A DNA stretch of 64,000 nucleotides from an uncultured Pseudomonadales bacterium. GTDB lineage: Bacteria; Pseudomonadota; Gammaproteobacteria; Pseudomonadales; Azotimanducaceae. The notes beneath the pieces were generated by a model. That model was given only the letters and a program-made list of their open reading frames with translations. It ran no database searches and was not told where the DNA came from. The DNA is taken from the NCBI GenBank assembly GCA_958296195.1, contig OY282455.1, forward strand, positions 2,852,001 to 2,916,000, read 5' to 3'. The translations under genes and the position numbers were made by a program. Numbering within the stretch: position 1 is the stretch's first letter; every line of letters begins with the position of its first letter. This document shows, in pieces, positions 33,069 through 40,884 of the stretch.

Positions 33069-33159
33069 GGAGGGGTGGCTGAGCGGTCGAAAGCACTGGT
33101 CTTGAAAACCAGCGAAGCTGTCAAAGCTTCCCAGGGTTCGAATCCCTGCCCCTCCGCCA
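33069..33159 (+). tRNA. tRNA-Ser (anticodon UGA)
   Basis: The acceptor stem pairs GGAGGGG (33069-33075) with CCCCTCC (33149-33155), the discriminator is G and the CCA end is encoded (33157-33159). The anticodon stem-loop CTGGT-CTTGAAA-ACCAG carries UGA. A long variable arm (class II, as for Ser) and the T-loop GGTTCGAATCC are present. The total is 91 bases. The tandem mobile units start at the next base, and its last 10 bases (CCCTCCGCCA) recur at every unit junction. Confidence 0.97.
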
Positions 33160-33647
33160 TAGCCGTTCGTAATTTTTCGGCATTTTTGCCCGTTTTCCGC
33201 CTAGTCCGAAAACCCAAATTTCCTTAAAAATCAATCTGTTGTCCAATTGGCACCTTGGGGGTTAGAATGCCGGCTTTCCACCGATGGGCTGCTCCGCATG
33301 GCCGATTTGGCGCTGGATTCGCGTTCCGACGAGGACGTTCCGCCGCTGGCTCCGGTGCATTTGCCGGAGTTCGACCAGTCGTAGTTGGCTGATCTGCTGC
33401 AATCCGATGTACGGGGGCTTCGGGATGCCCTTTGACGGCCCCTTGCCCGTCCGCAGGGGCGCCCTTGGCTGATGACTAGGGGGTGCCTTGGCGGGCCATG
33501 CGTCCTTGGATGCGTACGTCGGCTCATTCTGGATGCGCCATTCATGGGGGCGCGAAACAGACGGCGAATTTGCGCCAGTTTAATTTTCAGGCAAGCTATT
33601 GATTTTATTTAGAAAAACGGAAAATGCCGAAAAACTGCGAACGGTTA
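33160..33647 (+). mobile_element. 488-bp mini-element nested in unit 1
   Basis: It has a complete left end (33160) and a right end whose arm finishes at 33647 (AACTGCGAACGGTTA, slightly diverged). The interior is only the conserved left region with the leader ORF and the conserved right region, like a MITE. Unlike the other right ends it is not followed by the spacer GCCCTCCGCCA, so it is not an independent junction. Confidence 0.6.
33298..33384 (+). pseudogene. Leader ORF of unit 1, frameshifted
   Basis: Twenty-eight codons start at a conserved ATG (MADLALDSRSDEDVPPLAP and on). Compared with unit 4, a 2-base loss near 33382 creates the stop. The lost continuation can still be read in another frame as SWLICCNPMYGGFGMPFDG, matching SWLMCRNPTHGRFGVPFDS of unit 4. 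An ancestral protein with a Cys-containing motif is implied. Confidence 0.5.
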
Positions 33648-34247
33648 GGCAATTCCCCCCTCTGTTGAAAACTCGGCTCATGGGCGACGGTGCAGAGTCT
33701 CTAGGGGTAGGGGACGGGATCGAACATCAGCCGCCTAACCCCCTCCGACAGCGTGGCCCAAAGCCCCTTCGGATGCGCCCCCTCGGCAGCGTCCGCGCCA
33801 ATGCGCCTGAGCGGATGCGCTCGCTCAGCCGCCCACCGCCGGCGCAAGCCGCCTAGCCTCACCCTTCGGGGCGACCTGCGGAGCAACGCTCCGAGACGGC
33901 GCTCGCCCAGACGGCGGGAAACGCCCCCAAAACACGCCCACGCCCCGCCAAGAACTGAAAACACACCCGAAACGACCCGAACCAGGCCGTTCCGCATCGC
34001 TCCGAGGACGCCAGCGAGCGCTGGCAGGGGAAAGCCTGCGGCAAAATGGGGCTGGAAAAGGCTACAGTGCAAGTCCCTCGTGTGTGAACGGTGATCTTTT
34101 GGGGAAATCGGCATATGATAGCGCCGTGGTTATGAAACTTGTTTGGAAGTTATCCGGCTTGGGGTATGGCCCCGAAGTCCGGTGGCGGTCTGTGTTAAGC
34201 CATCACCTTTGTGGGATGGTTTGTTTGTGAGGAATTAGGAGGGACAC
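33648..34247. other. 600-bp interval without a confident gene
   Basis: The first two thirds are very GC-rich; a 137-codon minus-strand ORF (33701-34114) rich in Arg, Gly and Leu crosses it but has no motif I recognise and I do not call it. From about 34075 the composition turns AT-richer, matching the following gene. AGGAGG at 34237-34242 is the ribosome-binding site of that gene. Confidence 0.5.
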
Positions 34248-35000
34248 GTGCCGAATGCGGGCAAAAACAATACGACCATTGCGCACCTGTTCGATTTGTT
34301 GGATAGATGGCGGCACTTGCCAGCTTATCAACTCGAACGTCGGGCCGATATATTCTTCGCGTTGTTTCTGCCTGAAGTGTTAGGAAAGCATCTTAAAGTT
34401 GACATAAATCCAATTCTTGTCCCTGAATTTCCGATCAAAAAGGAAAGTAACAACCAGTCCAAAAAGGCTGACTACCTTGCACTGTCCAAGGATGGGGAAC
34501 GGGCTTTCCTAATTGAGCTAAAGACTGACATGAGGTCAATAGATGAAGATCAAATTAAGTTCCTAAAATGCACAGCCCGAAAAGGAATAGACGAAATAGT
34601 TGAGGGGTTGAAGTCAATTGCTAAGAGCGAAAGTGTGCGAAGGAATCCGCAAACTAGAGGGCAATACTTCCGTTTGTTTCACGAATTAGAGGAATGTGGC
34701 CTTATTAAAATACCCAATAGGGATGACTTGGAGAAGCTTCTTCCTTCTGGCCAATGCAGAACGCCCGAATACGAAAAGTGCATTGAGAAGGTTGAAATTG
34801 GCAAATGCCCCAGAAGTCTAGAAATTGTGTATATCCTGCCGGACGAGTGGGCCGAGAAAATCGAAGCCTTGAAGCGCGATATACGGAAAATATACTTCAA
34901 AGATTTTTCAGAACATGCGAAGCAACAAGGTATCATCGGCAGACGGTTTTCAAAATCCTTGGATTGCTGGAAAAAGCAGGCTGAGCTATGTCTTCCCTAG
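34248..35000 (+). CDS. PD-(D/E)xK-type protein, low GC, cargo of unit 1
   Basis: This 250-residue protein is visibly AT-richer than its neighbours, a sign of transfer. It starts at GTG 34248 with AGGAGG 5 bases upstream. The middle segment KKADYLALSKDG followed by AFLIELKTD fits the D...E-x-K core of the PD-(D/E)xK nuclease fold (about residues 78-101). The rest is charged and helical. The 3' end overlaps the start of a DUF2779-like gene by 13 bases, so the two were probably one operon. A role in DNA processing or defence is inference from the fold. Confidence 0.6.
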   Translation: MPNAGKNNTTIAHLFDLLDRWRHLPAYQLERRADIFFALFLPEVLGKHLKVDINPILVPEFPIKKESNNQSKKADYLALSKDGERAFLIELKTDMRSIDEDQIKFLKCTARKGIDEIVEGLKSIAKSESVRRNPQTRGQYFRLFHELEECGLIKIPNRDDLEKLLPSGQCRTPEYEKCIEKVEIGKCPRSLEIVYILPDEWAEKIEALKRDIRKIYFKDFSEHAKQQGIIGRRFSKSLDCWKKQAELCLP

Positions 35001-35353
35001 TCATCAATCACCCCTGCCTCTCCAAATCCACCTACCTAACCGGCAAGCAGTGCCATCTACGCCTTTGGCACGACTTCCACGCCCGCGATCTTGCCACCCC
35101 CGCCGACGAGGCGCTGCAACTCGTCTTCGACACCGGCCATGAAGTAGGCGAGCTTGCCTGCCGGCGCTATCCCGGCGGGCATCTGATCGCGCACGATCAC
35201 AAGCATGTGCCGGAGGCGCTGGAGGAGACGCGGCGGGTCATCGATGCGAACGCGGCACCGGCGCTTTTTGAGGCCGCGTTTGAGCATGAGCATGTCTTGG
35301 TCCGCGCCGATGTGCTCGATCGCCTGCCTGACGGTGATTGGCGAGGCCGTTGA
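34988..35353 (+). pseudogene. 5' fragment of a DUF2779-family gene
   Basis: The first 121 codons look like the start of a DUF2779 protein (LSKSTYLTGKQCHLRLWHDF, then FDTGHEVGELA and FEHEHVLVRADVLDRLPDGDW). Full members run to several hundred residues and are RecB/Cas4-like nuclease relatives. Here the protein is cut just where the next motif should follow, and the sequence soon passes into the conserved right region of the mobile unit. It is probably non-functional. Confidence 0.6.
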
Positions 35354-35610
35354 CTTCAGCCCCGCACCCCTGGACGCTCAGATTGACGCCCGCCAATTCC
35401 ACTTGGGCGGGCAGGTGGACGCGGGGGCGCTGGATCATGGCGAGTGTGTCCTTGGCTGTTGGTCGGGGATGCGCCCTGGCGGGCCATGCGCCGCTGAATG
35501 CGGGCGGCGGCTCGCTCTGGAAGCGCCGTTTCATGATGGCACGAAAAAGATGGCGAATTTGTGCCAGTTTAATTTTCAGGCAAGCTGTTGATTTTATTCA
35601 GGAAAAACGG

Positions 35611-35675
35611 AAAATGCCGAAAAATTGCGAACGGCTAGCCCTCCGCCATAGCCGTTCGCAATTTTTCGGCATTTT
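35611..35675. repeat. Unit 1/unit 2 junction palindrome
   Basis: The left arm 35611-35637 and right arm 35649-35675 are perfect inverted repeats of 27 bp. The spacer 35638-35648 is GCCCTCCGCCA; its last 10 bases equal the 3' end of tRNA-Ser. Beyond 27 bp the arms continue as imperfect repeats. As single strand or RNA it would fold into a long hairpin presenting the tRNA end in the loop. Confidence 0.9.
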
Positions 35676-35786
35676 TGCCCGTTTTCCGCCTAGTCCGAAA
35701 ACCAAAATTTCCTTAAAAATCAATCTGTTGTCCAATTGGCGCCTTGGGGGTTAGAATGCCGGCTTTCCACCGATGGGCTGCTCCGC

Positions 35787-35987
35787 ATGGCCGATTCGGC
35801 GCTGGATTCGCGTTCCGACGAGAACGTTCCGCCGCTGGCTCCGGTGCATTTGCCGGAGTTCGGTCTGGACGTGGGCTGGATCATGTGCCCGAACTTCGGG
35901 GTTCACTGCGATGGGGGCGGCGCTTCGGGCAAGGGCGACGGGCGCTACCGTCTGAATTTCAGAACGGGCCGGGAAATTTGTAGTTGA
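35787..35987 (+). pseudogene. Leader ORF of unit 2, truncated
   Basis: Sixty-six codons start at the same conserved ATG as in units 1 and 4 (MADSALDSRSDENVPPLAP). They continue in frame through GWIMCPNFGVHCDGGG and DGRYRLNFRTGREICS, then stop. The pattern W-x-M-C-x-N with FGV looks like the N-terminal zinc-ribbon part of a transposase-like protein, cut short here. It is the longest version in the array with an intact motif. Confidence 0.45.
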
Positions 35988-36042
35988 GGCTCCGTATTCG
36001 GGCTATGGTGGCTGGAACGAAACGCAATTGATGGGAACAGGC

Positions 36043-36138
36043 ATGATCAAGACCCTAGAAGACGAGGGATCGAAGGCCGCCAACGGTAAGAAACCGTGGT
36101 CAAAGCCGACCGTGCGGCCAATGGACGTGATCACATGA
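36043..36138 (+). CDS. 31-codon mini-ORF resembling a lasso-peptide leader
   Basis: The ORF starts at ATG 36043 and ends at TGA 36136-36138. Its second half, GKKPWSKPTVRPMDVIT, resembles the K-x-W-x-K-P-x-(V/L)-x-x-(L/M)-(D/E) pattern of lasso-peptide leader regions, but there is no core peptide and no lasso cyclase or protease gene nearby. It may be an orphan or chance ORF; GGGAACAGG just upstream is a modest ribosome-binding site. Confidence 0.3.
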   Translation: MIKTLEDEGSKAANGKKPWSKPTVRPMDVIT

Positions 36139-36241
36139 ACGCGGTCGGGATACGGCCCTTGCACCCCCACCCAATCATCCCCATGCGAGGAAGCCGAAGG
36201 CTACGATCCCCGATGTCGTAGAAGTGGCGATAAGGGGCTTC

Positions 36242-36598
36242 TCAATTACTTTCCTCGCTCCTTCTGGACAGACAGTCCTTTTCGGCTTTCAGGGTCAGCA
36301 GTTCGGTTTCCCGTTGGGCAGCGGTTTTCTCCGCCTGTCCCTTCTCCAGCGCGTTGCCGATGCCGAAATCCCCTAGGAAGCCACCGATCGAGGCGATGTT
36401 GATCTCCGAACCTTCGGCAACTTGCCGGCGGAATTCGGCCACCTTCGCCAACTCGATCTCTATGTCCTCACAGGTGTAGCGATCCCTTTCCACACCGGAA
36501 ACGGTCTGCATCCTGCCGTATCTTTTGGTGGCGCATCCGCCGGCCACCAATGCAAGCGCGACAGTTGCGGCCAAGGCGATCTGAATTCGATTGGTCAT
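36242..36598 (-). CDS. Small lipoprotein, cargo of unit 2
   Basis: The 118-residue protein has a clear lipoprotein signal: MTNRIQIALAATVALALVAGGC, with lipobox LVAGGC and the acylated Cys at residue 22. The mature part is charged and helical, with a short Gly-rich stretch (GGFLGDFGIGNALEKGQAEK) that may be a membrane-contacting loop. ATG 36598 has AGGAGT upstream. No family recognised. Bases 36670-36712, just upstream, repeat part of its own coding sequence (36402-36443) imperfectly. Confidence 0.65.
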   Translation of the reverse strand: MTNRIQIALAATVALALVAGGCATKRYGRMQTVSGVERDRYTCEDIEIELAKVAEFRRQVAEGSEINIASIGGFLGDFGIGNALEKGQAEKTAAQRETELLTLKAEKDCLSRRSEESN

Positions 36599-36811
36599 TG
36601 AAGCACTCCTGTTGATGATTCGGATGAGTTTATGGCGGGATATGCGGCTGCACAACATCGCCCGAAGGCGATTCTCCGAACCTTCGGCAACTTGCTGACG
36701 GAATTCGGCCACCTAATGCCACTTTAGGGAAGTATATTCCTTTTTCATTTTCAATGGGTTAGGGTATATATACCTAAAAACTCGGAACGGCTAGCACAAT
36801 CAGAGGAAGCT

Positions 36812-37027
36812 ATGCAAGCAACATACTCACAAATTCGGTCTTGGGTTAGAGAACGGTACGGTTGGCAGCCCAAAACTTGTTGGATTGCTCACTGCAAGGA
36901 ATTGGCGGGCCTGCCAGTTAGTCGCGCCCCGAATCGCCAGGGCACGGGCACGGAGCGGGCAAATCCCTGTCCGCCAGATAAGCAGGAGGCCATCTTCAGT
37001 GCGTTCCGGCACTTCAAGATGCTTTAG
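36812..37027 (+). CDS. 71-residue conserved hypothetical, cargo of unit 2
   Basis: It starts at ATG 36812 with AGAGGA 3 bases before it. The sequence (YGWQPKTCWIAHCKELAGLP, then a CPPDKQEAIFSAFRHF end) strikes me as a small conserved family seen in many bacteria, but I cannot assign it a function. It stands between the lipoprotein gene and the trxB fragment and reads in the direction of the unit. Confidence 0.55.
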   Translation: MQATYSQIRSWVRERYGWQPKTCWIAHCKELAGLPVSRAPNRQGTGTERANPCPPDKQEAIFSAFRHFKML

Positions 37028-37125
37028 AATAGATAACCCCCCTGAAGCAGTTTGCGACTGCCGCTGCCGGCCGCAGGCGCAGAGCGAGCGGTTGGACATC
37101 GCCCTGAATGCGGCGGGCAAGATAG

Positions 37126-37296
<171 letters not shown>

Positions 37297-37373
37297 TGAT
37301 GACACGAAAAAGATGGCGAATTTGCGCCAGTTTAATTTTCAGGCAAGCTGTTGTTTTTATTTAGGAAAAACGG

Positions 37374-37438
37374 AAAATGCCGAAAAATTGCGAACGGCTA
37401 GCCCTCCGCCATAGCCGTTCGCAATTTTTCGGCATTTT
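37374..37438. repeat. Unit 2/unit 3 junction palindrome
   Basis: Arms 37374-37400 and 37412-37438 are perfect 27-bp inverted repeats flanking spacer GCCCTCCGCCA (37401-37411), identical to the junction at 35611-35675. Confidence 0.9.
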
Positions 37439-37546
37439 TGCCCGTTTCCCGACTAGGTCTAAAACCAGAATTTCCTTAAAAATCAATCCATTGTCAAATT
37501 GGCGCTTGGGGGTTAGAACGGAAACTTTCCCCAAGAGGCGGTTCGC

Positions 37547-37624
37547 ATGGCCGAATTGGCGCCGGATTCTCGGTCCGGCTCGGCGAAGCGTTTCCTGGCG
37601 CAAAGCCTGCCGTTCGCGGACTGA
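37547..37624 (+). pseudogene. Leader ORF of unit 3, short diverged form
   Basis: Twenty-five codons start at the conserved ATG (MAELAPDSRSGSAKRFLAQS) and stop before the Cys motif. Only the first ten residues match the other copies. Confidence 0.35.
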
Positions 37625-37836
37625 TCGGACGAGGGATGGGGAACTATGGGCGGAACGTGATCGAGCATTGGGCGCCGACCGGCGGCTAGCTCTGGATGCG
37701 CCATTCACGCTGGCACGAACAAGAGAGAGTTGCGCTAGGAGTTGAGATCCAAGATTGACAAGTATTGGGATGGAGTTAAATTGAGACACTATCGCTTTTT
37801 GCGTTTCCATCCTTCACTCTGACTGGAGATTCCTTC

Positions 37837-38634
37837 ATGACTGTTAGACTTTGGGGCTTACTCTCCATCGCTCTACTGCTGCAACCGCAGGCGCATGGGG
37901 CCTATTCGGACGTGTACAACAAGGTCAATCCGCTCATGGACGTCCATGAAACGGCTTGTAAGGCCGTCGCCCAAGCGGCGATTCTGGCTTACAAAGCGGA
38001 ACGGCGGGGAGTGCTGCGGCGCAAATGGATGCGCGGCATTGCCAGAAGCATTGGGCATCAAGCGGAGAAGGCCATAGCCGACGCGGTGGCCGTGGATGAA
38101 GCCGGCGCCGAACAGTTGACCGATGCGCTCGACATGCGGGACTTCATGGGCGAGGTTGTGCAGCGCATCTACCGCCCTGATGAGTTCTCTTGGCCCATGC
38201 GGACAGGCTACTTGTCCGGCTCAAGCGACTATCAGGAGACTGTCTGCACTTGGCTGCACACCGAGTGCGCCGCGCGCGTGGCAGCAGTGCTGACGGACCC
38301 GCAGTTTTCCGAGGAAGCACACAGGACCCGTTTTGCGCTACAAAGGTGGAGGGGCAGCGCAATTGCATCAATCGAGACTGTTCTTGAGTGGTGGGGCACT
38401 GGTTATACGTCTGACGAACCCACAGACGCCCAATGGGGAGATTTGGCGCTCTACTCCAAATGGGCGGAACCCCTTGAGAAATGCGAAGACACTCTAGAGG
38501 AACATCCCTTCAATAATGACCCCGCCACCCCGCCGCGACTTTTGGCCTTGCCAGACTCACTCATCATCCCGCCCCCTAGTGCGCATAGTCACCAGATGGA
38601 TTCGGAGGGCTCGCTGCCCACCGAGGGCGAGTGA
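37837..38634 (+). CDS. Secreted protein of unknown function, cargo of unit 3
   Basis: The 265-residue protein has a signal peptide (MTVRLWGLLSIALLLQPQAHG, cleavage about residue 21-22). The mature part is mostly helical and acidic, with four cysteines (in HETACKAV, ETVCTWLH, HTECAAR and EKCEDTL) that could form two disulfides, and a Pro/Ser-rich acidic C-terminus. GGAGATTCCTTC precedes the ATG. I recognise no family. It is the only substantial gene in the unit. Confidence 0.6.
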   Translation: MTVRLWGLLSIALLLQPQAHGAYSDVYNKVNPLMDVHETACKAVAQAAILAYKAERRGVLRRKWMRGIARSIGHQAEKAIADAVAVDEAGAEQLTDALDMRDFMGEVVQRIYRPDEFSWPMRTGYLSGSSDYQETVCTWLHTECAARVAAVLTDPQFSEEAHRTRFALQRWRGSAIASIETVLEWWGTGYTSDEPTDAQWGDLALYSKWAEPLEKCEDTLEEHPFNNDPATPPRLLALPDSLIIPPPSAHSHQMDSEGSLPTEGE

Positions 38635-38758
38635 CGGTGCCAAAGCTGTAGGTCCGCTTGAATTGAGGAGGGGGACAGCGTAACGGTCTCGAAAAAGATG
38701 GCGGATTTGCGCCAGTCTAATTTTCAGGCAACCTATTGATTTTATTCAGGAAAAATGA

Positions 38759-38823
38759 AAAATGCCGAAAAATTGCGAACGGCTAGCCCTCCGCCATAGC
38801 CGTTCGGGATTTTTCGGCATTTT
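38759..38823. repeat. Unit 3/unit 4 junction palindrome
   Basis: Arms 38759-38785 and 38797-38823 flank the spacer GCCCTCCGCCA (38786-38796). The right arm differs at a few bases (CGGGATTTTT in place of CGCAATTTTT), so it is slightly imperfect. Confidence 0.88.
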
Positions 38824-38934
38824 CGCCCGTTTCCCGCCTAGTCCGAAAACCCGAATTTCCTTAAAAATCAATCCCTTGTCAAATTGGAGCCTTGGGGGTT
38901 AGAATGCCGGCTTTCCACCGAGGGGCTGCTCCGC

Positions 38935-39189
38935 ATGGCCGATTTGGCGCTGGATGCGCGTTCCGGCGGGGACGTTCCGCCGCTGGCTCCGGTGCATTTG
39001 CCGGAGTTCGGCCAGTCGGTCAGTTGGCTGATGTGCCGCAATCCGACGCACGGTCGATTCGGGGTTCCCTTTGACAGCACTGCCCGTCGTGGAGCCGTCC
39101 GTCAGCGGCGTCATGGCGGGGCGCCCTTGGTTGTCGACGAGGGGTGCGCCCTAGCGGACCATGCGCCCTTTGTTGCTGGTGTTCAGTAA
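38935..39189 (+). pseudogene. Leader ORF of unit 4
   Basis: Eighty-four codons start at the conserved ATG (MADLALDARSGGDVPPLAP), continue through SWLMCRNPTHGRFGVPFD, then turn into Arg/Gly-rich sequence that no longer agrees with the other copies. Probably the 5' part of a once longer gene. Confidence 0.45.
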
Positions 39190-40553
39190 AGCGGGAATTG
39201 CGAACGGCTGGAGCATTTACGGCTTTTGAGGCCGTCTGCGTCTTGGTCCACCTTGGCGTTGGCGTCCACGGTGCTGTGCGGGGCGGCCTGCTCCCTGCTC
39301 GCTTCGGCGCGGCGTTCGGGCGGCAGCAGTTTCGGGTGTACGTCTGGCCACAGGGCGCGTACTCTGCGCGAAGCTGCTTGGGACAGGGTGGGGATGCCGC
39401 AGGACCAAGGGGGCACTGCGAAGGGGTCCATCTGGTCCTTGCTTTGCTCGTCCGCCCACAGGAAGCCGGCATGCACCAGTCCCTCGAAGAGTTTCTTGAC
39501 GGCCTTATGAGAGCGCGCACCCGCTCTTTTACAAGCCGCCTCGATGTCACTGTTCGTCAGGACTGCGAACCCTCCTTGCGCCTGTGCAGTCTCCGTGACG
39601 GCGCAAGCCGCCATCAGCAGGTCGTCCATCTCCAGGTCGTTCAGGCGGTCGATGTAGTAGCCGGATTTGGAGCGGGTGAAATCGGGCGTCGCCTGGCGCA
39701 CCGCGTCTGCCGTGATGGGGGTTCGGGTTGGGTGTCCGGAGTCCCATAGGGCTCGTCCCATAATCTGCAGGAAGTACGGATATCCGTGGGTCTCCTTCAT
39801 GATGAGGTCAGCGGCCTCGTCCGTGATGGCTGTCCGCATGGGCTTGGCGATCGCGTCCAGGCTGTCTGCGCGGGGAAGCAGCCCCAAGGGGCGCCTTCGG
39901 TTGTCCAGCCTGGACCAGAACGTGGCGTTCATTTTATTGAGCGCAGCCCGCAGGTTGGGGGTTCCGGCGAGGATCAGTTGGAGGTTGGCGCCTCCGGCTC
40001 GGGCGCTTTGCTCAGCGTTCAGCAGTTCCCTGCCTGTGTCAAGGGGCAGGGTGTGCGCCTCGTCGATGAGAATCAGGCAGGGCTTCCTGCCCAGTGTGCC
40101 GAGGGCGAGGGTGAGGGATGGCTCTAGGTGCTCCCTATGGGTTTCGATGGAGCCTTCGGCTTCAGCGAGTCCGGGCACGCCGGCGGTGCCGCCGACCAGT
40201 CGGGTTTCACTGGTTTGGATGCTTTTGGATTGGTTCGCCAGCGCGGTCAGGTGCTTGGCGAGCTTCTCCGGCGTTTTAAGCTCCGATATCTCCAGTTTGA
40301 CCACTTGCGCACCGCGCACCGCAGCCGCCGAGGCCATGTGCAGCATCAGTGCAGTCTTGCCGTTGCCGCGGGGTCCGAATAGCGCCATGGGGCCTTTGGC
40401 GTAATTTTTCGGATCGGCCATGCAGTCCAGGCAATCCTGAAAAACATTCAGCTCCTCTTCGCGCCCAGCCAAATACGGCGGCACCACGCCGGAGGTGGGT
40501 TGGAAGGGGTTCGTTTTTTTAGGCTTCTTGAGCTTGCCCATGCTGCTGTGCAT
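39183..40553 (-). CDS. AAA ATPase, cargo of unit 4
   Basis: The protein of about 456 residues has Walker A LFGPRGNGKTALML, Walker B PCLILIDEAHTL, and a sensor-1-like LQLILAGTPNLRAAL, then YPYFLQIMGRALWD, as in ATPases of the Orc/Cdc6-STAND neighbourhood. The C-terminal part (about residues 320-400) looks like a winged helix. A DNA- or partner-binding regulatory ATPase is plausible. I use ATG 40553; ATG 40541 is possible, and the frame is open to 40691. The 3' end runs over a remnant of the element right arm, so the last residues may be altered. It points against the unit direction. Confidence 0.7.
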   Translation of the reverse strand: MHSSMGKLKKPKKTNPFQPTSGVVPPYLAGREEELNVFQDCLDCMADPKNYAKGPMALFGPRGNGKTALMLHMASAAAVRGAQVVKLEISELKTPEKLAKHLTALANQSKSIQTSETRLVGGTAGVPGLAEAEGSIETHREHLEPSLTLALGTLGRKPCLILIDEAHTLPLDTGRELLNAEQSARAGGANLQLILAGTPNLRAALNKMNATFWSRLDNRRRPLGLLPRADSLDAIAKPMRTAITDEAADLIMKETHGYPYFLQIMGRALWDSGHPTRTPITADAVRQATPDFTRSKSGYYIDRLNDLEMDDLLMAACAVTETAQAQGGFAVLTNSDIEAACKRAGARSHKAVKKLFEGLVHAGFLWADEQSKDQMDPFAVPPWSCGIPTLSQAASRRVRALWPDVHPKLLPPERRAEASREQAAPHSTVDANAKVDQDADGLKSRKCSSRSQFPLY

Positions 40554-40846
40554 CAAACCAGTCGTTTCGATGTCAGCATTATGCCTTGTGAATTGGCCTG
40601 CAGCAACCCGGACCGACGGCTGTCGTTGCCTGCAGTGGCGCTTGCGTCCACGTCTGTTTCGGGGTGCCTTTGCCTTGGGCCGCATCGGCATCTACGGGCC
40701 GATCGGGCGGCTTTCGGGACGGTGCCGCTTTAGGCGGCAACCAGTTCTGCCCCTCTGTCGCCGCTATTCGTGATGGCGCGGAAACACAGTGAATTTGCGC
40801 CAGTTTAATTTTCATGCAAGATGTTGATTTTATTTAGGAAAAACGA

Positions 40847-40884
40847 AAAATGCCGAAAAATTTCGAACGACTAGCCCTCCGCCA
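40847..40884. repeat. Outer right end of the array with final spacer
   Basis: The right arm (40847-40873) ends with CGAACGACTA and is followed by GCCCTCCGCCA (40874-40884). The next bases (AATTCAAAGCC) do not match a left end, so this is where the array meets the chromosome. The repeated 10 bases CCCTCCGCCA bracket everything from the tRNA to here. Confidence 0.85.

Follow-up and report, generated by a model that had tools for sequence, protein, structure and literature searches.

Target duplications of 8-9 bp occur in IS256/Mutator-type and IS1-type families, and bacterial elements found at tRNA genes are normally credited to integrases. According to two reports, insertion sequences of the IS1272/IS1182 group (TnSha1) insert into hairpins, several of which are terminators (PMC4923244, PMC5678879). 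The array described here lies directly 3' of a tRNA-Ser(TGA) gene and is apparently the product of a DDE transposon. It consists of four units arranged head to tail, and it spans positions 33160-40873 of a 64,000-nucleotide stretch (the window; contig OY282455.1, positions 2,852,001 to 2,916,000) from an uncultured Pseudomonadales bacterium. We put at about 85% the probability that all four are DDE-type transposons that carry cargo, are non-autonomous and belong to an undescribed family.

The preliminary description of this DNA had placed four units here, each with a common left end closed by its inverted copy, and with conserved ends around unrelated insides; all coordinates hold (Table 1), and the other features were borne out as well. 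The terminal inverted repeats (TIRs) of about 28 bp match at 24-28 of 28 positions in each unit. The left 210 bp are 92-98% identical among units 1, 2 and 4, the left region of unit 3 aligns to the other units over about 170 bp at 83-84%, and the right 95 bp are 89-97% identical between units (81-95 bp aligned). No similarity was found between the interiors at an E-value of 1e-3 except for 40 bp (units 1 and 3) and 59 bp (units 1 and 4). An additional internal right end is present in unit 1 at 33647 and another, from a different TIR subfamily, in unit 2 at 36793, and for this reason both units look remodelled or fused. Neighbouring units had also been said to be parted by 11 bases, 10 of them from the tRNA. 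The 11-base junction GCCCTCCGCCA is indeed found 3' of all four units, but unit 1 has CCCCTCCGCCA on its left, and the tRNA copy of the repeat begins with C where the other copies begin with G; the leading G therefore belongs to the right end of the element and not to the tRNA, and the duplication measures 9 bp.

The same length was found away from tRNA genes. In what follows, G000 is the genome holding the window (4.31 Mb, one contig), G001, G002 and G004-G008 are same-genus genomes, and L numbers are retrieved sequence stretches (loci). Exact 9-bp duplications flank elements at non-tRNA sites in G000 (CTCAGCGAG, CACTCCGGG, CCCTCTGAT and CGTAATTTC) and in G001 (ATCTCGTCA), and in element direction an A stands outside the left end and a G outside the right end. 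Since these five sites are identical over 9 bp on both sides, the duplication is 9 bp and the element extends from A-TAGCC to GGCTA-G. Left-facing ends lacking a tRNA-type flank number 12 (nine in G000 and three in G001; two G001 ends were left out as part of the opposite-strand tRNA-Ser(TGA) array), and these sites account for five of them; a sixth pair matches at 8/9. A copy of 30,846 bp (G000, 925747-956592) is flanked by CTCAGCGAG inside an MFS gene, and its in silico removal together with one duplication joins the flanks as an open frame of 446 codons that reads as an MFS transporter. TIRs and a target duplication of fixed length at unrelated sites are thus both present, as is expected of DDE/D-type elements. 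One sequence motif common to all targets was considered and rejected because the exact non-tRNA duplication at 1825108-1830260 is unlike the tRNA end.

A 27-base TIR pattern occurs at 37 places in G000 with at most three mismatches (reversed control pattern, 0), and a looser pattern for sub-families at 47 places versus two for the control. Elements were also found behind tRNA-Ser(GGA) at 2558735 and at unrelated sites. A copy of unit 4 with 90% identity stands behind this second tRNA (G000:2558826-2560879), and unit 2 has an interrupted copy of about 95% identity at G000:423730 (L023). The right-hand duplication is CCCTCCGCC in the window and CTCTCCGCC for both of these copies, and for the copy of unit 4 it matches its own tRNA; at both tRNA genes, the duplications of the copies therefore fit the local sequence. 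The interruption in the L023 copy (L023:2821-5876) contains an IS481-like gene along with one for a large serine recombinase; both were rejected as a general mover, as a single copy of unit 2 contains them and the window copy has neither. Tabulated over stretches picked for TIR content and with one mismatch permitted in the tRNA motif, 19 of 51 ends in G000 and 30 of 39 in G001 had tRNA-type flanks (background for left-type flanks, 0.18%).

Occupation of the tRNA sites differs among the eight same-genus genomes. tRNA-Ser(TGA) is directly followed by a TIR in G000, G001 and, in diverged form, G007, and no TIR directly follows it in G002, G004, G005, G006 and G008; the genes upstream match the window in G001, G005, G006, G007 and G008 (G004 matched at the tRNA alone, and G002 was left out of this comparison). 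The similarity of the two G001 units at this tRNA to the window units is confined to the end regions. With G001 differently filled and five genomes empty, the region is no fixed block, and the repeated insertion of non-autonomous units at one tRNA, as suggested in the preliminary description, agrees with this variation. tRNA-Ser(CGA) is occupied in G001 and G002 and has a diverged end in G007, and tRNA-Ser(GGA) is occupied in G001. The left end faces the tRNA wherever the ends are distinguishable (window, L032, L119 and L124). In G001, two units with a tRNA-type junction between them (L120:4022-10349) are flanked by copies of ATCTCGTCA and resemble the DNA after the first unit of the G001 tRNA-Ser(CGA) array, as if the two-unit block had left a tRNA array as a composite. 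Units also follow a tRNA-Asp gene of G001 (L116:2706, G001 689705) with a tRNA-Ser-like 3' end, CGCTCCGCCA. In the tRNA-Ser(GCT) stretch (L022:3420-8500), a Mob_Pre relaxase gene and a phage-integrase gene precede a unit, which may have been displaced.

Table 1. Features of the array and its surroundings (window coordinates; aa, amino acids; ORF, open reading frame)
Feature	Position	Strand	Remarks
tRNA-Ser(TGA)	33069..33159	+	target is the last 9 bp preceding the final A (CCCTCCGCC)
Unit 1	33160..35637	+	2478 bp; inverted ends match 26/28
Unit 2	35649..37400	+	1752 bp; inverted ends match 27/28
Unit 3	37412..38785	+	1374 bp; inverted ends match 28/28
Unit 4	38797..40873	+	2077 bp; inverted ends match 24/28
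Junction unit 1/unit 2	35638..35648	+	element G + 9-bp duplication CCCTCCGCC + A
Junction unit 2/unit 3	37401..37411	+	element G + 9-bp duplication CCCTCCGCC + A
Junction unit 3/unit 4	38786..38796	+	element G + 9-bp duplication CCCTCCGCC + A
Terminal junction copy	40874..40884	+	after unit 4
Gene A start remnant, unit 1	33298..33417	+	one internal stop
Gene A start remnant, unit 2	35787..35909	+	
Gene A start remnant, unit 4	38935..39180	+	
Gene B start remnant, unit 1 right end	35416..35526	-	residues 2-38
Unit 1 cargo	34248-35000		250-aa ORF
Unit 1 cargo	34988-35353		121-aa ORF
Unit 2 cargo	36242-36712	-	ORF, lipoprotein-like by eye
Unit 3 cargo	37837-38634		265-aa ORF, signal-peptide-like start by eye
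Unit 4 cargo	39183-40691	-	AAA ATPase ORF

The preliminary description had supposed that an enzyme encoded elsewhere moves the units, and the same genome does offer candidates, genes A and B, both open in the 30.8-kb element. Gene A is a 619-codon ORF at its left end, gene B is a 654-codon ORF on the opposite strand at its right end, and the ends of this element match, at the DNA level, the end regions of every unit in the array. A and B share two stretches at 28% identity, and A matches the B-family profile over most of its length (probability 99.4); the two are distant relatives. Relatives of B are present in 121 plasmid records, the best 30 of which comprise 26 annotated as hypothetical, one insertion element protein and three without annotation, and gene A had no match in plasmids. 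In the genomes of 78 relatives (G000 included), A was found in three and B in four, all of this genus, and the co-occurrence of A with tRNA targeting here is no more than suggestive. A relative of A without stops, 45-46% identical over nearly the full length, was detected in G078, where contig L158 holds the closest relative of B (56%). This contig comes from a metagenome-assembled genome (MAG) labelled Chloroflexi, possibly misbinned, and neither tRNA nor TIR was found within the 4.8 kb retrieved for the G078 gene A. In a tree of 55 sequences, B and the G078 contig form a well-supported pair outside the remaining family, and gene A is on a very long branch (end branch 7.55) with unsure placement. 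Within the 30.8-kb element there is also a gene resembling tRNA-Ser(GCT) (L026:7410-7498; G000 946409-946497), perhaps a captured target; its 3' end is altered, and a partial left TIR comes next.

The family of B is widespread and has no curated name. When one genome per species was scanned, 79 loci were obtained, of which 65 were examined automatically and 14 were omitted as short matches or not chosen; under the score cut applied, 31 loci showed TIRs (CAAGCCGTTC... being typical) and a duplication matching at 8 or more of 9 bases. Together with two plasmid elements they make 33 insertion sites, two of which, L161 and L163, are one insertion under two organism names; their flanks are identical and labelled Alphaproteobacteria MAG and Thiocapsa, a probable contamination or misbinning. 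The duplication lay at the centre of a stem of 7 bp or more at 20 of the 33 sites versus 0.64% of 6600 random positions in the same loci, and a stem of at least 6 bp with an A or T run at 19 of 33 versus 0.35%. Both proportions far exceed random, and many relatives thus insert in the loops of terminator-like hairpins; the remaining sites, both plasmid ones among them, fail the hairpin test. One site lies 24 bp from a tRNA-Arg gene and is the sole one within 500 bp of a predicted tRNA. When gene A was searched against the wider-family loci, the matches fell within the single family gene. ORFs were tabulated for 12 larger elements, and ten cargo proteins from nine of them, a subset of the ORFs, were scanned: DNA methyltransferase or restriction-modification cargo (including type IIG) lies between the TIRs in six of the nine (L164, L170, L171, L184, L186 and L193), and the scanned cargo protein of L172, L181 and L185 is neither. 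The inverted ends of an Enterococcus plasmid relative (L065:8589-11864) enclose a transposase-like gene and a trimethoprim-resistance gene, and 19 pattern matches in viral contigs included no relative. For the window itself, no family above its cut-off was matched by the 250-aa, 156-aa and 265-aa cargo ORFs, and PADLOC gave no match for the 250-aa ORF of unit 1 or the ATPase of unit 4.

The AlphaFold model of the family member L193, with a predicted local distance difference test score (pLDDT) of 88.8, has an RNase-H transposase fold nearest to that of ISCth4. Three aspartates, D249, D410 and D538, are present in 47, 44 and 46 of 47 members, and the triad was assigned from sequence and from position in this fold, which was predicted for L193. 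The B-family members are thus predicted to be RNase-H-fold transposases with three acidic residues, and the product of gene A keeps the three aspartates. E506, present in 47 of 47 members, was provisionally rejected as the third catalytic acid; the gene A product is without E at that place, and E506 lies outside the D538 helix. All 47 relatives match the IS1 transposase model weakly at E<=0.01, and the one relative with a tabulated score reaches 30 bits against the IS1 cut-off of 100, over the N-terminal zinc/helix-turn-helix part. A and B gave no match to this model at E<=0.1 and reached no cut-off, and hhalign of the family against four IS1 catalytic sequences gave no support; no model match above the cut-off, which would indicate IS1 membership, was thus obtained. 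The IS256 four-Cys domain is weakly matched in 41 of 47 members. Placement in a named family was rejected, as Pfam, NCBIfam and PHROGs have no dedicated model; 26 of the 47 match one PHROGs family named transposase, and the best 60 of 125 hits of a PDB sequence search are nearly all zinc-finger proteins.

We propose that the units keep the ends needed in cis, with the TIRs and, next to them, the A start region on the left and the B start region on the right, and carry other DNA inside. A and B, encoded 1.9 Mb away in the 30.8-kb element, would bind these ends in trans, find their target in the tRNA-Ser 3' end and, through a staggered cut of 9 bp, insert the unit there with its left end towards the tRNA. 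Because the duplicated 9 bp plus A would rebuild the tRNA 3' end at each insertion, the tRNA would stay whole and the site reusable, and units would therefore accumulate head to tail with no integrase needed. Arrays may later be remodelled by fusion and loss, and blocks may move on as composites. A more elaborate form of this proposal is tentative and has, in our opinion, clearly less than an even chance: the two diverged RNase-H transposases, one encoded at each end and perhaps specific for it, would form a heteromeric system that retargets a hairpin-reading ancestral family to tRNA-Ser 3' ends, giving cassette-like arrays that renew themselves and from which units and blocks can be mobilised again.

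Several observations weigh against the transposon interpretation or parts of it. The preliminary description had stated that ends occurring mainly outside tRNA junctions would speak for an old duplication, and this applies in part: 32 of 51 ends in G000 (9 of 39 in G001) do not adjoin a tRNA-type duplication, some of them being new-site insertions with fresh duplications and others unpaired or decayed. Several right ends are unaccompanied, no right end was located for the G002 element, and for 6 of the 12 non-tRNA left-facing ends no right end with a matching duplication is present in the stretch. Extra Cs at some tRNA-type junctions, e.g., left of the unit at 2558826, make these duplications inexact. 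In G000, tRNA-Ser(CGA) is without a unit and tRNA-Ser(GCT) without a directly adjacent one. Protein searches found no gene A start in unit 3 and a gene B start in unit 1 only. Among the genomes searched, open A and B occur together in one element only in G000, and G001, with its many tRNA-type ends, shows them as fragments only.

Among the alternatives, the one that survives best, although we consider it unlikely, is that B alone or another resident transposase moves the units and that A is a decaying paralogue or regulator. Elements with a single gene, TIRs and 9-bp duplications do occur in the wider family, and A is strongly diverged and has no E at the E506 place; yet A is open over 619 codons with the three aspartates kept, its uninterrupted relative in G078 accompanies the closest relative of B, and its start is included in the left end that units 1, 2 and 4 have conserved. 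Far less probable are integrase-type islands or cassettes moved by a tyrosine or serine recombinase encoded elsewhere, with the tRNA 3' end as att site. The direct repeats are short and identical to the tRNA 3' end, one protein of the 30.8-kb element has a phage-integrase SAM-like domain match, and recombinase genes lie inside the L023 copy of unit 2 (large serine recombinase) and near tRNA-Ser(GCT) (phage integrase). An element-borne core as in integron or tyrosine-integrase cassettes would however mean one constant copy, and at the five non-tRNA sites the direct repeats vary, each being a copy of the local target; inverted repeats are present at both element ends, and the MFS frame reopens on removing exactly one duplication copy. 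TIRs, locally copied 9-bp duplications and a transposase family of predicted RNase-H fold therefore indicate DDE transposition, and the cassette framing of the preliminary description finds no support. A shade less credible still is that one unit was duplicated in tandem long ago and its copies then diverged or underwent gene conversion: this would account for the same orientation and junctions throughout, and conversion could preserve the ends, but the interiors are unrelated, units 2 and 4 have 90-95% copies elsewhere with a different right-hand duplication, the orthologous G001 site holds different units, and the locally matching duplications speak against it as the main process. Casposon-like elements with a Cas1 integrase as mover are the least probable of all. 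Casposons do have TIRs and duplications, and several are located at tRNA 3' ends, some with a second copy (PMC4046053), but here the genes linked to the ends are members of a transposase family of RNase-H fold, and ten scanned proteins of the 30.8-kb element gave no match to Cas1 or PolB, the whole of G000 not having been searched.

By title and abstract, the matches listed in the open-licence literature included no bacterial DDE transposon at tRNA-Ser 3' ends and no terminator-loop family with 9-bp duplications. The array would be a case in which a DDE transposon apparently spares the tRNA while building arrays that are open-ended and have exchangeable cargo. Within one protein family, two safe-site strategies can be compared, tRNA ends and terminator-like hairpins, the reading of either by a transposase becomes testable, and A and B may serve as candidates for targeted DNA insertion. 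Casposons share TIRs, duplications, tRNA 3' ends and occasional second copies with the present elements (PMC4046053), but they have Cas1 and PolB and no DDE transposase. The IS1202 family (ISAjo2) is likewise a site-targeting DDE insertion sequence of fixed orientation, and differs by its TnsB-like model, 5-bp duplications and dif sites (PMC10132070). Dada elements are eukaryotic DDE transposons targeting tRNA and snRNA genes, reported to make 6-7 bp duplications inside the tRNA gene (PMC3706591), whereas the present ones are bacterial and leave the tRNA 3' end whole. Hairpin insertion, as in the wider family here, is reported for IS1272/IS1182, but as blunt insertion with the target partly deleted and no duplication (PMC4923244, PMC5678879), unlike the 9-bp duplications found here. 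The IS256/Mutator-type (ISCth4) and IS1-type families resemble the present one in the predicted RNase-H fold, which is nearest to ISCth4, and in weak IS1/IS256 domain matches, and the present family differs from both by proteins of about 600 aa, strong target choice and cargo.

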